Shown piece after piece: positions 1 to 14,081 of a stretch of DNA of 14,515 nucleotides. The stretch is from Dehalococcoidales bacterium. Its GTDB lineage: Bacteria > Chloroflexota > Dehalococcoidia > Dehalococcoidales > UBA2162. The notes beneath the pieces were generated by a model that was not told the DNA's origin, did no database searches, and saw nothing but the letters and a program-made list of their open reading frames with translations. The translations under genes and the position numbers were made by a program. The DNA is taken from NCBI GenBank assembly GCA_020343555.1, contig CP070800.1:2304462-2318976 (forward strand). Reading direction: 5' to 3'. Positions within the stretch are counted from its first letter, which is position 1. The number at the start of each line of letters is the position of its first letter.

Positions 1-693
1 AGCAGGGACCAGGAAGAAATTACTTAAAGAAGCCACGCCGAGTAATATTGCCAGTCCTTTCCATGACCAGATGAAACGAAACCCCTGCATCATGTCGTAA
101 ATGACGGATGCTTTTTCAACAAGGGTTGTTTTCAGAGGTTTTGGTATTGCTATTAACGACATCAGTCCTACGGCGATTATCGCCGTCCCAATATCAACAG
201 CAAGAACTCCGTACACGGGTATAGTTTCCATTAATAGCGCCCCAGCTGGCGGGCCAATTATGTTGATGATCCCGCCGAGCATCTGGTTCAATCCGGCTAC
301 CCGGGCGAGATGTTTCTCCGAGACGATAAGTGGAATGGAAGCTGCCATTGCCGGGAAATGAAATGTACCGCCTATTGATCTGGCGATCATAGCTACATAT
401 ATATGCCAGATCTGAATGGTTTCCGTAAAGAAGAGGACAACCAGACCAGCGGTTATCAGGGCGACGAATGAGTCGGCAACAATGATTATCTTTTTCCTAT
501 CCCACCGGTCAATATACGGACCAATCAAGGGGCCAAGAATGATTTGTGGGAGAATTGCTATCATCATGGCAGTGGCGAGTATTGTGGCTGAGCCTGTCTC
601 TTGAGTGAGATACCACGCCAGGGCAAAGTTGACGATAGAGCTGCCAAGAAGAGAAGCTGCCTGACTGATCCAGATTACGAAAAACTTTTTCAT
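1..693 (-). CDS. MFS drug-efflux-type transporter (3' end beyond window)
   Basis: The open frame runs from ATG at 693 to the window edge, 231 codons with no stop. It shows the N-terminal half of a major facilitator: hydrophobic helices at about residues 4-29, 35-58, 68-90, 96-125, 137-157 and 160-183, then a basic cytoplasmic loop (about 184-210) and the start of helix 7. The loop between helices 2 and 3 carries MFS motif A, with GP at 54-55, D62-R63 and R66-K67-K68. The style (start MKKFFVIWISQAASLLGSS) resembles the DHA3 / macrolide-efflux (MefA-like) group. That subfamily and its drug substrate are inference; a proton-driven inner-membrane exporter is the safe call. The start is fixed by a TAG codon directly upstream in frame; no good Shine-Dalgarno is visible. 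It lies 117 bases downstream of the GIN-domain gene on the same strand, so co-transcription is possible. Confidence 0.85.
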   Translation of the reverse strand, partial: MKKFFVIWISQAASLLGSSIVNFALAWYLTQETGSATILATAMMIAILPQIILGPLIGPYIDRWDRKKIIIVADSFVALITAGLVVLFFTETIQIWHIYVAMIARSIGGTFHFPAMAASIPLIVSEKHLARVAGLNQMLGGIINIIGPPAGALLMETIPVYGVLAVDIGTAIIAVGLMSLIAIPKPLKTTLVEKASVIYDMMQGFRFIWSWKGLAILLGVASLSNFFLVPA

Positions 694-810
694 CTATTTA
701 TTCAAACGGTATTTGATACTAGTCTGGCAGCTCTGTATCTATACGATATAATACATCTACGATTAATTTAGTTTATCGCATTTACGTCATTTTATAAACC
801 AATTTAATCC

Positions 811-1719
811 TTATTCCTTGCTAAGCTTTGCAGCTCCGGATGTCCTGATATCTCCCATCACTGGCTCGCCCCGCCAGCCGAAATACGAAGCTCCGCTCAG
901 TCGGGCATCCAGTCTTCCGGAAACATTTGCAGAAAGACGGCTGGCGCCACTCAATTTTACCGCCGCATTTTCTATAGTAAATTCACGAAGATCGATACGG
1001 TTAGCGCCGGAAGCTCGTATCACGGCGTCTCTGGAAGAACCGTTTAACCTGATGCGACCTGCTCCTGACACGTCAAAATCGATATTACCGGAATTAATAT
1101 CACCATCCAGGGAACAGGCACCGGACGTATCCAGCTTAAAGGATTCAGATGAGCTGAAACCTGAAATATGTACACCGGTAGCGCCCGACAGACGAAGCTC
1201 TTTCAGGACGGGCATAGATAACTCAACCCTGGGCTTGACTAACGCTGCTCTCCAGCCTATATGCCTGCTATGACGTACCCGCAGAGTATCTCCTTCCTTC
1301 GACACATCAAGATTTCTGAAGAAATTATGGTTAGCGTCTACGCTGACACCAAATGTATCGGATTGTGTGATCCTGACATCGAATATCCCACTGATTTGAA
1401 TCGTACTGAAATTGGTAAAATCATATTTATTAGATTCTCTATCTTCATCGGACGCAATAAAACCGGGCATATCGAAATCATCGAAAGGCTGGTGCGGTGG
1501 AGGAGGGAAGGGTGGTTCGGGAGTAAATGGAGTATCAGGAAAAGACGATTTTCTTGTCCTGATATCATCAACCTCATCTTTTAAGGTAGACCGAATATTA
1601 TCCAGTTCCGTTTTCAGGTCTTCCTTGATTTCCGACTTGATGGTTTCCAGTTCATCCCTTAGGCCCTTCATTATGGTATTTATGATGTCGCTTGTTTCAT
1701 TTGAATCTTTATTTTCCAT
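811..1719 (-). CDS. GIN-domain (DUF2807-like) beta-solenoid protein with coiled-coil N-terminus
   Basis: The encoded protein is 302 aa. ATG at 1719 is chosen over the one at 1746 because AAGGAGGT sits four bases before it. Residues 11-57 are charged and heptad-like (probable coiled coil). Residues 60-86 form a Pro/Phe-rich hinge (EPPFPPPPHQPF). Residues about 100-302 match the putative auto-transporter adhesin head GIN / DUF2807 fold: the S-G-A tripeptide recurs at 178, 199, 218, 237, 257, 275 and 294, a period of 18-21 residues expected for rungs of a right-handed beta helix. There is no signal peptide or membrane segment, so the mature protein looks cytoplasmic unless exported by another route. 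The molecular function of GIN proteins is unknown. Its strong RBS and AT-rich promoter suggest good expression. Domain call fairly sure; role not known. Confidence 0.85.
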   Translation of the reverse strand: MENKDSNETSDIINTIMKGLRDELETIKSEIKEDLKTELDNIRSTLKDEVDDIRTRKSSFPDTPFTPEPPFPPPPHQPFDDFDMPGFIASDEDRESNKYDFTNFSTIQISGIFDVRITQSDTFGVSVDANHNFFRNLDVSKEGDTLRVRHSRHIGWRAALVKPRVELSMPVLKELRLSGATGVHISGFSSSESFKLDTSGACSLDGDINSGNIDFDVSGAGRIRLNGSSRDAVIRASGANRIDLREFTIENAAVKLSGASRLSANVSGRLDARLSGASYFGWRGEPVMGDIRTSGAAKLSKE

Positions 1720-11161: not shown

Positions 11162-12889
11162 CTACACAGAGTGATCAGGATTAAATTCGGTTATTTCTTC
11201 GTCCTTGCGTATAAGGGCTAGAATCCGTCTTCTCTCTTCTGTCTTCAAGCCCATTACATTCAAGAGTCTTTTGATAAACCTGAAACTGGCCTCATACTCA
11301 GGGCTAACCAATTCGATTACTCCCAACTCTTTAAGCTCGTTAGCTTCTCTAGCCCGATGTACCCTCGCTAATACCTTTAGCTTTGGATTAATACTCAGAG
11401 CAGTCTTTACCGTGGTAACCAATGCAATCGGGTCTGGATAAGTTACCACCAAAGCTTGCGCTCTACCAAGGTCAGCCTTGGATAGAACATTTATATTGGT
11501 AGCATCACCATATATACGTGGTCGCCCGATGTTTCTTGCATCGGAAATACGCTCCGGATCGAGATCGACAATAAGGTATGGAATACCAGCATCTTGCATG
11601 CCTTGAGCGATATTTTCACCAACTCTACCATAACCAGCAATCACTACTCGGCCTATATCCTCAGAGGGAACAGAATCATTAGATAGCGTATCCACTTCGG
11701 TAATCATCCGCTTTCTACTCATCAACACAGCTAGTTTTGGATATAGTCTGAATACCAAACTAATTGAAACCGGTGTTAACAACATGGTGATAATTGCACT
11801 GGCGAGAATTAATGAGTAAAACTGAGCTGAAACGATGCCCATATTGACTCCACTCTGAGCTAAAATAAAGCTAAACTCACCAATCTGAAAAAGGCCGACA
11901 CCAGTTAAGATGGCAATCCGGGAACTATGACCAAAGAGTCGTACAATACTAAAAATAACCAGTATTTTCAATACGATGATAACCGCCACTAACAGTGCTA
12001 CTGATTGCCAGTTATTAATCAGGAAAACGGGGTCAAGCAGCATACCCAGAGAAACAAAGAAAAGAGTAGCAAAAATATCACGCAATGGAGTAATCTCTGC
12101 CAACGCCTGATGTACAAACCTTGTTTCACGCAATACCAGACCTACTAGGAAAGATCCAAATACGATTGATAGCCCTAAAATCTGTGTGCCCATTGCGGCA
12201 GCCAAACATAGTACAAGAACTGTTAACAGAAACAGTTCTCGAGCTCGAACACCGCCAACTTTGCCCAGCAACCAGGGGAGAACCCAGCGTCCTAATACGA
12301 TTGCTAACCCGATAAAAAGAAGTGCTTTCCCTACAGCGACAGCAAGAGTAAGTGGTAAGTTCTCGGTTAAACCACCCATTAATGGTATGACCACCATCAT
12401 AACTACTATACCGATATCCTGAAGAATGAGGATGGCAATCATTATACGCCCATGCACTGAGGCCAATTCACCTCGCTCCATCAATATTTTAAGGCATACT
12501 GCCGTACTGCTGAGAGAGATAATCAAACCAAACAAGCCAGCTTGGGGCAGAGGCCATCGGAATAGAAAGAATCCTACAATTAGGCCTAGAGTGAGAGTAG
12601 CTGCAATTTGGCTAATGCCACCCAATATTCCTATCTTGCCTACTTCACGTAATTGAGATATCGAAATTTCCAACCCCAAGGTAAACATCAATAGCGCAAC
12701 GCCTATGGTAGCAGCTGCTTCAACCATTTCCAGATCACCTATCAGACCAAGAGCATGAGGTCCAACAGCTACACCGATTACTAGGTAGCCCAAAATAATT
12801 GGCTGCCTTAATCGATGGGCTATCATTCCACCTACTAAGGCTGCTGACAACAGCACGACAACGTTAACAATAGGATCCAATTGCTGCAC
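11162..12889 (-). CDS. Kef-type CPA2 cation/proton antiporter with RCK domain
   Basis: The 575-residue inner-membrane protein combines a monovalent cation:proton antiporter-2 domain (about 5-385, roughly 12-13 helices) with a cytosolic RCK_N/TrkA_N domain (about 413-530). Visible motifs: LQD at 156-158 in the ion-binding helix; FFVSLGM (277-283); QIGEFSFIL (335-343); nucleotide-binding G419-Y-G421-R-V-G424; and D442 at the end of the second strand (LIVDLDPER). Such proteins (KefB/KefC, YbaL, RosB relatives) exchange K+ or Na+ for H+, gated by NAD(H)/ATP or glutathione adducts; no separate KefF/KefG partner is nearby. The start is GTG (12889), with an in-frame TGA four codons upstream; the TTG three codons in, better spaced from GGAG, could be used instead. 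Expression appears controlled by the upstream Mn2+-type riboswitch, pointing to a role in metal or pH homeostasis. Base use looks more A/T-rich than pheST, by eye. Confidence 0.93.
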   Translation of the reverse strand: MQQLDPIVNVVVLLSAALVGGMIAHRLRQPIILGYLVIGVAVGPHALGLIGDLEMVEAAATIGVALLMFTLGLEISISQLREVGKIGILGGISQIAATLTLGLIVGFFLFRWPLPQAGLFGLIISLSSTAVCLKILMERGELASVHGRIMIAILILQDIGIVVMMVVIPLMGGLTENLPLTLAVAVGKALLFIGLAIVLGRWVLPWLLGKVGGVRARELFLLTVLVLCLAAAMGTQILGLSIVFGSFLVGLVLRETRFVHQALAEITPLRDIFATLFFVSLGMLLDPVFLINNWQSVALLVAVIIVLKILVIFSIVRLFGHSSRIAILTGVGLFQIGEFSFILAQSGVNMGIVSAQFYSLILASAIITMLLTPVSISLVFRLYPKLAVLMSRKRMITEVDTLSNDSVPSEDIGRVVIAGYGRVGENIAQGMQDAGIPYLIVDLDPERISDARNIGRPRIYGDATNINVLSKADLGRAQALVVTYPDPIALVTTVKTALSINPKLKVLARVHRAREANELKELGVIELVSPEYEASFRFIKRLLNVMGLKTEERRRILALIRKDEEITEFNPDHSV

Positions 12890-12943: not shown

Positions 12944-12986
12944 AAAAAAGACCTTTATCGCAAAATATAGATTGCAATAAAGGTCT
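12944..12986 (-). terminator. Expression-platform terminator of the riboswitch
   Basis: On the minus strand AGACCTTTATTGCAA (12986-12972) pairs with TTGCGATAAAGGTCT (12963-12949) over 15 bp with one G-U pair, loop TCTATATT, then five more T (12948-12944). The first arm includes the 3' strand of aptamer helix P1 (12983-12977), so aptamer folding and termination are mutually exclusive. Confidence 0.93.
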
Positions 12987-13071
12987 CGCTTGTTAGCCTT
13001 TACCTAACCAACAGCTCCGGGTCTTTCAGACCGTGTTGACGTTAGCTGTTTAGCCAGCTACTCCCCTTTAT
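12977..13071 (-). promoter_or_regulatory. yybP-ykoY manganese riboswitch aptamer
   Basis: Read on the minus strand from 13071, the segment begins ATAAAGGGGAGTAGC and ends AGCGAGACCTTTAT, the two conserved flanks of the yybP-ykoY class, whose metal site is formed where these two loops dock. P1 is ATAAAGG (13071-13065) with CCTTTAT (12983-12977). P2 is AGCTG/CAGCT (13059-13055, 13048-13044). A long arm is built from CTAAC/GTTAG and CAACA/TGTTG, capped by GGTCT-GAA-AGACC. This class binds Mn2+ and usually controls exporters (MntP, TerC/Alx, P-type ATPases). Here it lies 88 bases before a Kef-type antiporter. When Mn2+ stabilises P1 the downstream terminator cannot form, so it should switch expression on. 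Confidence 0.92.
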
Positions 13072-13077
13072 GGTTTC

Positions 13078-13106
13078 ATAATCTCAAAGTAGCATACGTT
13101 TGTCAA
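13078..13106 (-). promoter_or_regulatory. Promoter for the riboswitch-antiporter transcript
   Basis: On the minus strand a perfect TTGACA (13106-13101), a 17-base spacer and GATTAT (13083-13078) predict a start near 13071, exactly at the first base of aptamer helix P1. The fit between the predicted start and the aptamer boundary supports both calls. Confidence 0.75.
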
Positions 13107-13523: not shown

Positions 13524-14081
13524 ATGGCGGATCATTATAAAATCAGGATCAAATTATTAAAAAACGACAAACCCTGTAACCAGGGTCATAAACCGGGTAC
13601 CGAATGGCTGTACGATAAAGCGGCTCCGCAGGGATTATGCAGCTTTGCATTCAACTCTCTTCGCCCGTTTATCGAGGTGCTGAAAAACGGCGGTAATCTT
13701 CCTTGGGAAGGTGATCCTAACGTCGTCACCCAGTGCTGTCCCGATCACCTGGTTAACAACGTGTTCGAAATGAGGCGTGAACCTGAGAACGATAAAAAAG
13801 CTGACGCGTATAATGTCTTTGTCAAGCTGGTCGGTAAGGATTGCGATGGAGTCTGCGGTTTCGGCCACAAGGAAGGAGATACCTGGGAAATTAATAGCCC
13901 CAGAGAAATGGTCCTCGAGAATATCTGTCCTTCAGCGTTTAAGGCTGTCAATGATGCAGTGACGGTGATGAGGTATGGCGGACAATATCCCTGGCAACCC
14001 GATCCTGAAACATACACTGTAACCTGCCCTGATCCGAACGTGAGAAACAAGTTTGAACTCAGGCGTACACCGAGGCAATAA
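13524..14081 (+). CDS. Protein of two tandem TIGR04076-like domains
   Basis: The 185-residue soluble protein is an internal duplication. Copy 1 (about 5-87) and copy 2 (about 96-183) share, in order: GHKPGTEW (21-28) / GHKEGDTW (114-121); L/I-C at 39 and 135; a GG (56-57 / 152-153); PW (60-61 / 156-157); DP (64-65 / 160-161); CPD (72-74 / 168-170); and FE-x-RR (81-85 / 177-181). This matches the uncharacterised TIGR04076 family as I recall it, which is normally a single domain of about 90 aa. Conserved Cys (C18, C39, C71-C72; C107, C111, C135, C168) and His (H22, H115) could bind metal or a redox cofactor; that is inference. GGAGGGG precedes ATG 13524 at good spacing. It lies alone between its own promoter and a convergent partial gene. 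Function unknown. Confidence 0.85.
   Translation: MADHYKIRIKLLKNDKPCNQGHKPGTEWLYDKAAPQGLCSFAFNSLRPFIEVLKNGGNLPWEGDPNVVTQCCPDHLVNNVFEMRREPENDKKADAYNVFVKLVGKDCDGVCGFGHKEGDTWEINSPREMVLENICPSAFKAVNDAVTVMRYGGQYPWQPDPETYTVTCPDPNVRNKFELRRTPRQ

Follow-up and report, generated by a model that had tools for sequence, protein, structure and literature searches.

Introduction

In the yybP-ykoY riboswitch of L. lactis, Mn2+ stabilizes helix P1.1 and prevents termination (PMC11087558). The adenosine of L3 contacts Mn2+ through its N7, a role described for A41/A48 (PMC6754395). In E. coli, alx and mntP are reported Mn2+ riboswitches, Mn2+ shock raises the cytoplasmic pH, and alkaline pH tightens the binding of Mn2+ to the mntP riboswitch 17- to 22-fold (PMC9603457). 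A further comparison is offered by the Na+-I (DUF1646) riboswitches located before kefB and napA, which are likewise ion riboswitches that act on a CPA2-family gene by transcription termination, but which sense Na+ and form a separate RNA class (PMC9337991).

The window analyzed here is the entire stretch of 14,515 nt from a Dehalococcoidales bacterium (GCA_020343555.1, contig CP070800.1, positions 2,304,462-2,318,976 of the forward strand). Its minus strand carries, in order, a predicted promoter (TTGACA-17-GATTAT, 13106-13078), an aptamer (13071-12977), an intrinsic terminator (12987-12948), and a gene for a CPA2 cation/H+ antiporter (12889-11162). Considered as a whole, the locus probably represents a yybP-ykoY transcription ON-switch that governs a monocistronic gene for a CPA2 (Kef/YbaL-like) antiporter, by which Mn2+-linked alkalization would be countered. 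It shares with the L. lactis type of transcriptional yybP-ykoY riboswitch the L1 and L3 cores, a P1.1 3' strand that lies within the terminator, and the ON logic. It differs in the lack of helix P2 and in a CPA2 target rather than TerC, MntP, a P-type ATPase, or CaCA.

Assignment to the riboswitch class

A preliminary description assigned a yybP-ykoY riboswitch to the minus strand of this DNA and suggested a search with the Rfam model. RF00080 does not match the window at its gathering score, nor at E-values up to 1. This negative result carries little weight because, in the E. coli control, the same model misses the alx leader (L076, 1871-2004) and scores mntP at 41.6 bits against a cut-off of 45 bits. 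Over 14 control genomes, RF00080 gives signals in nine and exceeds its cut-off in two; its match in L075 reaches 11.3 bits. As RF00080 of Rfam 15 misses a reported member, surveys that rely on it may undercount the class.

Two further covariance models were used. Model R1 consists of the window and a close relative, L122, and model R2 of 14 other loci with both of these excluded. The seeds of R2 were collected with R1 and its structure line was taken from R1, and R2 is thus independent of the letters of the window, not of the drawn structure. With filters off, R2 matches the window at 12973-13075 with 79.1 bits (E 8.4e-17), at the place and on the strand first proposed, while the next-best site in the window scores 12.4 bits. 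The same model scores L122 at 76.7 bits and E. coli alx at 36.9 bits (E 1.1e-5). Over 19 sources at E up to 0.1, R1 gives five matches, namely L122, L091 (TerC, 33.6 bits), L109 (24.4 bits), alx (23.9 bits), and mntP (17.4 bits), and reports none of the remaining pattern sites in those sources. R1 scores L126, a P-type ATPase locus by Pfam, at 46.8 bits. When its filters are turned off, it misses L121 and returns false places: two extra ones lie in L109 and L077, a distant one in L111, and one out of register in L086. The reach of both models is limited; of the 96 pattern loci L133-L228, R1 gives a signal in 30 when E-values up to 1 are allowed. Together with the L1 core (GGAGUA and GAGA) and the L3 core (UCAACAC), which match the class, these results make the window RNA almost certainly a yybP-ykoY riboswitch, as judged from its sequence.

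Aptamer fold and ligand

The aptamer is closed by P1.1, in which AUAAAGG (13065-13071) pairs with CCUUUAU (12977-12983), and by P1.2 (13056-13058 with 12988-12990), both drawn from the comparison with L122 and from model R2. The L1 strands lie between these helices. The 5' strand GGAGUA (13059-13064) is invariant in the 13 sequences of alignment A1, most of which were picked by a pattern that fixes GGAGUA, and the 3' strand GAGA (12984-12987) is drawn from A1 and R2. P3.1 (13040-13048 with 13012-13019), placed by L122 and R2, contains a bulged A13043 and an A13042-G13017 mismatch where L122 has G-C. It leads to L3 (13033-13039) and to P3.2 (13020-13032), a 5-bp hairpin with a GAA loop in which a U-A pair of the window is A-U in L122. 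Hairpin P4 (12992-13008) is supported by the comparison with L122, by covariation in the seeds, and by R2.

The P1/P2/long-arm fold first proposed stands for P1 but not for P2. Instead of the four-way junction with P2 that is expected of the class, P1, P3, and P4 form a three-way junction, common to L122 and the R2 seeds, in which a joining strand of 7 nt between P1.2 and P3.1 (13049-13055) takes the place of P2, as judged from the structure and from loci with short gaps. A P2 hairpin (AGCUG...CAGCU) is preferred for the window by energy folding alone; it was set aside, since its bases are those that form P3.1 and the P2-less form is common to L122 and the R2 seeds. The segment CAGCU (13048-13044) can pair with either a 5' or a 3' AGCUG, and the 3' pairing gives P3.1. 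The region 13012-13058 thus holds three AGCUG/CAGCU segments that make a P2-like hairpin and P3.1 mutually exclusive, an arrangement kept in L122. The gap between the two conserved blocks is 16 nt in the window and 15-17 nt at 13 of 97 sites in the survey described below. As these sites and, by reading, alx have a similarly short gap, P2 is seemingly not universal.

Among the 14 R2 seeds, 21 of 28 pairs have changed on both sides, and none of 500 shuffles reaches any of five measures, a result favored by the fitting of the seed alignment to the drawn structure. In the seeds, 95.0% of cells pair, and this falls to 35-47% when the partners are slid. L122 retains all 28 pairs, one of them through a double change, and the window retains 27. 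Folding energies of the aptamer alone are modest (z -1.44, with 15 of 200 shuffles equally good), and the drawn structure lies above the minimum-energy fold by 6.4 kcal/mol in the window and 4.6 kcal/mol in L122.

By comparison of L3 with L. lactis and X. oryzae (PMC6754395), A13037 would be the equivalent of L. lactis A41 and is predicted to be the adenosine that contacts Mn2+. Mn2+ is very likely the ligand of this riboswitch. That the RNA is a yybP variant with a different divalent ion as its ligand is, by comparison, highly improbable. A review does expect such variants and notes the diversity of associated genes (PMC7266159), but the L1 and L3 cores match the class, the sensing adenosine is kept, and the UCAACAC of L3 occurs at eight of 97 survey sites; the best downstream match of these eight is TerC (six) or a P-type ATPase (two). 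The search pattern of that survey itself fixes the L1 core and the sensing adenosine of L3.

Promoter and terminator

The -35 box TTGACA (13101-13106) and the -10 box GATTAT, preceded by TG (13078-13083), are separated by 17 nt. The box is present as first described, but not directly at P1: it lies 30 nt upstream, and it is the transcription start, predicted near 13071 from the spacing, that falls at the 5' end of P1.1. A promoter scan finds one sigma-70-like site against a shuffle mean of 1.5, i.e. at chance level. As this count is no better than in shuffles and the -35 box is weak alone, the promoter call is based on its position and on the equal geometry in L122.

The intrinsic terminator (12987-12948) consists of 16 pairs, where 15 had been counted, followed by a U tract, and is found by both the terminator scan and folding. 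The scan detects a single terminator-like site, where shuffles average 0.2, and the 56-nt terminator stretch has a folding energy of -22.5 kcal/mol (z -6.95 relative to shuffles). The proposed reuse of P1 is borne out, as the 3' strand of switch helix P1.1 lies within the 5' arm of the terminator, which is the layout of a transcription ON-switch. Downstream, a GGAG is spaced only 2 nt from the GTG start assigned to the antiporter gene by homology, so either the start or the ribosome site is uncertain. The copy of the protein in the protein database (P0001) has 572 aa, which fits a TTG start three codons later than the GTG.

The antiporter

As the preliminary description stated, the CPA2 gene (11162-12889, minus strand) is the only gene downstream of the riboswitch, and the next gene, pheT, is convergent. 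CPA2 is very probably the riboswitch target. Elsewhere in the window, 13524-14081 of the plus strand encodes a tandem TIGR04076 protein with two matched stretches. The antiporter of 575 aa harbors a Na_H_Exchanger domain (PF00999, E 4.8e-63) and a TrkA_N domain (PF02254, E 1.9e-25). No NCBIfam model listed gives it a score that reaches the curated cut-off. The best is YbaL (329.6 bits, cut-off 700), and the KefC and KefB equivalog models give 264.9 bits (cut-off 752) and 248 bits (cut-off 804). TIGR00932, the model of the CPA2 subfamily, gives 197.2 bits against 238.3 (E 3.6e-58), which marks a clear relative below the curated line.

The protein resembles E. coli KefC (PDB 8BXG) in its membrane exchanger with TrkA_N, in the QD motif, and in seven of eight residues at the K+ site. 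S127, T129, L154, Q157, D158, K308, and F339 of the window protein correspond to S125, T127, L152, Q155, D156, K307, and F338 of KefC; the difference is S336 of KefC, which is a glycine (G337). The eight positions are the analysts' choice among the residues at and around the K+ site described in PMC11150392. The same eight letters occur in 19 of 19 compared CPA2 relatives that carry no riboswitch before the gene, all scanned with a covariance model over at least 1,000 nt upstream (18 with R1, and L130 among the R1 and R2 scans). The site letters therefore do not vary with the presence of the switch.

These comparisons bear on the possibility that the antiporter itself exports Mn2+, as a CPA2 branch with a shifted substrate that is marked by the riboswitch. 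The characterized targets named in two papers, E. coli MntP and the L. lactis exporter, are Mn2+ exporters (PMC7266159, PMC11087558), and Mn2+ specificity may, by the inference of a review, extend to other transporters that the switch controls (PMC7266159). Antiporters as such are normal targets: in the survey, 12 of the 98 sites precede Ca/Na antiporters, and the riboswitch of L234 precedes a GDT1 divalent cation/H+ antiporter. Yet with the KefC-type site kept, and with its letters unchanged in riboswitch-less relatives, export of Mn2+ is quite improbable. Nothing in this analysis favors carriage of Mn2+, which this antiporter is unlikely to perform, and the earlier suggestion that this branch exports Mn2+ is not upheld. 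The other earlier suggestion, that the antiporter counters the pH or K+ stress of Mn2+ excess, is the better fit, and findings in E. coli lend it indirect support (PMC9603457). Exchange of K+ (or Na+) for H+ in correction of pH or K+ is a reading that we place somewhat above an even chance.

Related CPA2 loci

The preliminary description proposed to look upstream of CPA2 homologs in related genomes, and the riboswitch is absent from all the loci scanned. Model R1 finds none in 32 related CPA2 loci (L001-L020, L022-L028, L030, L060, L118-L120), of which 31 are distinct because L119 repeats L012; L018 offers only 116 nt upstream. Model R2, over 32 CPA2 loci with L018 dropped and L130 added, gives only two weak matches (L026, 16.7 bits; L010, 16.0 bits), both far from the gene start. 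In 74 CPA2 loci, the three-block pattern gives one chance match (L052), almost 5 kb from the CPA2 gene; L021, L029, and L031-L074 except L060 were covered by this regular-expression screen only. For L130, the CPA2 locus of the genome that carries L122, the 1,500 nt before the gene contain no match. The nearest loci, L001, L002, and L118, encode proteins 81-82% identical, and their upstream DNA is unrelated by reading; closer homologs (P0002-P0015, 83-87% identical) were covered as proteins only. The absence in relatives shows a lineage-specific arrangement, and outside this lineage there is no sign that the pairing is under selection. Neither this absence nor the missing Rfam match is counted as refuting the riboswitch, because RF00080 misses alx and the absence reflects that arrangement.

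L122, in another genome of the order (G484), provides a close relative of the window RNA. Its riboswitch (1492-1594) precedes a gene (151-1428, minus strand) whose product carries PF01595, PF03471, and CBS and belongs to CNNM/CorC (DUF21 + CBS), a Mg2+-linked family. Window and L122 are identical at 86 of 103 aptamer positions with equal promoter geometry, so that a near-identical promoter and aptamer stand before CNNM/CorC instead of CPA2. A terminator-like repeat follows the L122 aptamer by reading; the terminator scan reported none. The two loci align over the span bounded by the -35 box and the U tract, and no further. A regulatory cassette that was transferred or rearranged would be the simplest reading of the two loci, although not proven.

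The sharp borders of this block also suit a different explanation, in which rearrangement placed the cassette before CPA2 and the regulation has no adaptive role yet. The absence of the riboswitch from the related CPA2 loci tested points the same way, as does a tblastn search of 12 window proteins against 34 loci, which found no window gene other than CPA2 itself within the DNA compared (up to 5 kb per side for most). Such orphan regulation is nevertheless unlikely: all parts are intact, including 27 of 28 pairs, both cores, the terminator, and the short leader that precedes the gene. An unselected cassette would be expected to decay, although its arrival could be recent.

Targets of the riboswitch elsewhere

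The distribution of targets was surveyed with a three-block pattern in 400 sampled genomes from the phylum of L001 (titled Dehalococcoidales). The pattern found 98 places in 87 genomes, with two backward-control hits, and all 98 were inspected (30 loci, 66 regions, and two places in L080). Targets were called by blastp against six references, with the best match taken among all ORFs in the 1,650 nt that follow each site. By this measure, 38 sites precede a P-type ATPase, 35 TerC, and 12 CaCA, 13 have no match, and none precedes CPA2, CNNM, or MntP. For the P-type ATPase, six of the 38 sites have 564-1,113 nt between the aptamer and the start of the matching ORF, and another gene may therefore come first. 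Pfam assigns nine of the 13 unmatched sites to the TerC family and the others to CitMHS/ArsB (L227), PGPGW (L211), and a lamin-tail-domain protein (L168), apart from L223, which lacks the core and is a chance match. The totals for the 98 places are then TerC 44, P-type ATPase 38, CaCA 12, and other 4, with CPA2 as the best match at none.

Several of these sites have features of their own. TerC-family proteins of half length (93-97 aa) are found at L213, L214, L215, L216, L220, and L221, where the riboswitch also has no room for P2. At L227 (208-1485, minus strand), the riboswitch precedes the transporter of the CitMHS/ArsB family, and the sodium/calcium-exchanger genes under the riboswitch include those of L155-L158.

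Within the order of L001's genome, patterns and models applied to 156 genomes give three sites, L122, L126, and L121. The L126 riboswitch precedes a P-type ATPase by Pfam; an ORF that reads like a transposase adjoins the pair, in a genome bin of 0.9 Mb. L121 (1501-1824, plus strand) carries a riboswitch and a terminator-like repeat before an ORF of 52 codons, which reads as a small membrane peptide, has no Pfam match, and faces pth on the opposite strand. In 304 genomes of the class, R2 gives 15 matches, comprising L122, ten TerC, one CaCA, one P-type ATPase, one GDT1 (L234, by Pfam), and one without the motif. R1 matches two of 393 genomes of the class, at L127 (TerC; the same as L233) and L128 (E 0.019). 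A two-block pattern was rejected as too loose: it marked 15 places, spread over 14 of 393 genomes, whereas the backward control gave 16 hits; nine of the 15 have the CGTCA core. The three-block pattern took its place. In viral contigs, the two-block pattern marks 23 stretches, four with the core, and two of these four were used. BLAST against plasmids returned only a terminator-sized match, in two records of Lachnospira eligens, and the L. eligens locus reached through it (L129, 2917-3093) has a riboswitch before a Ca/Na antiporter.

In these searches, this member of a known riboswitch class stands alone in having a CPA2 target. The literature search yielded no paper that pairs yybP-ykoY with CPA2; the two founding papers of 2015 lay outside its coverage, so novelty is not certain. 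For Kef and yybP-ykoY, no pairing was seen, the available portion of one matching paper being concerned with Na+ riboswitches. The matches listed for CNNM/CorC make no mention of yybP-ykoY, and a search for 'manganese riboswitch' with Chloroflexi found no paper.

Proposed mechanism and significance

Without Mn2+, the 3' strand of P1.1 would join the 16-bp terminator and transcription would stop. With Mn2+ bound between L1 and L3, presumably at A13037, P1.1 would hold and RNA polymerase would read into the antiporter gene. Alkaline pH probably aids Mn2+ in preventing termination. The antiporter probably swaps K+ (or Na+) for H+, and a cytoplasm alkalized in Mn2+ excess would thereby be re-acidified. 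Because Mn2+ raises the cytoplasmic pH in E. coli, we infer that a K+/H+ exchanger that admits H+ would counter the alkalization.

A broader and much more tentative model links the window and L122. A compact promoter-riboswitch-terminator cassette might have come to control a K+/H+ antiporter gene in one lineage and a CNNM/CorC gene in another, with Mn2+ and alkaline pH jointly opening the gene, the exchanger acidifying the cytoplasm and feeding back on the switch, and the balance of pH and monovalent cations joining the Mn2+ response.

The annotation of transporter genes under Mn2+ riboswitches is often ambiguous, and the substrates are inferred from the switch. The step from a Mn2+ riboswitch to a Mn2+ exporter may fail here, because the binding site of the antiporter looks K+-type. 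The locus is a direct test case for the reported alkalization of the cytoplasm under Mn2+ stress, and suggests that changes in internal pH or potassium may form part of this bacterium's answer to Mn2+ excess.
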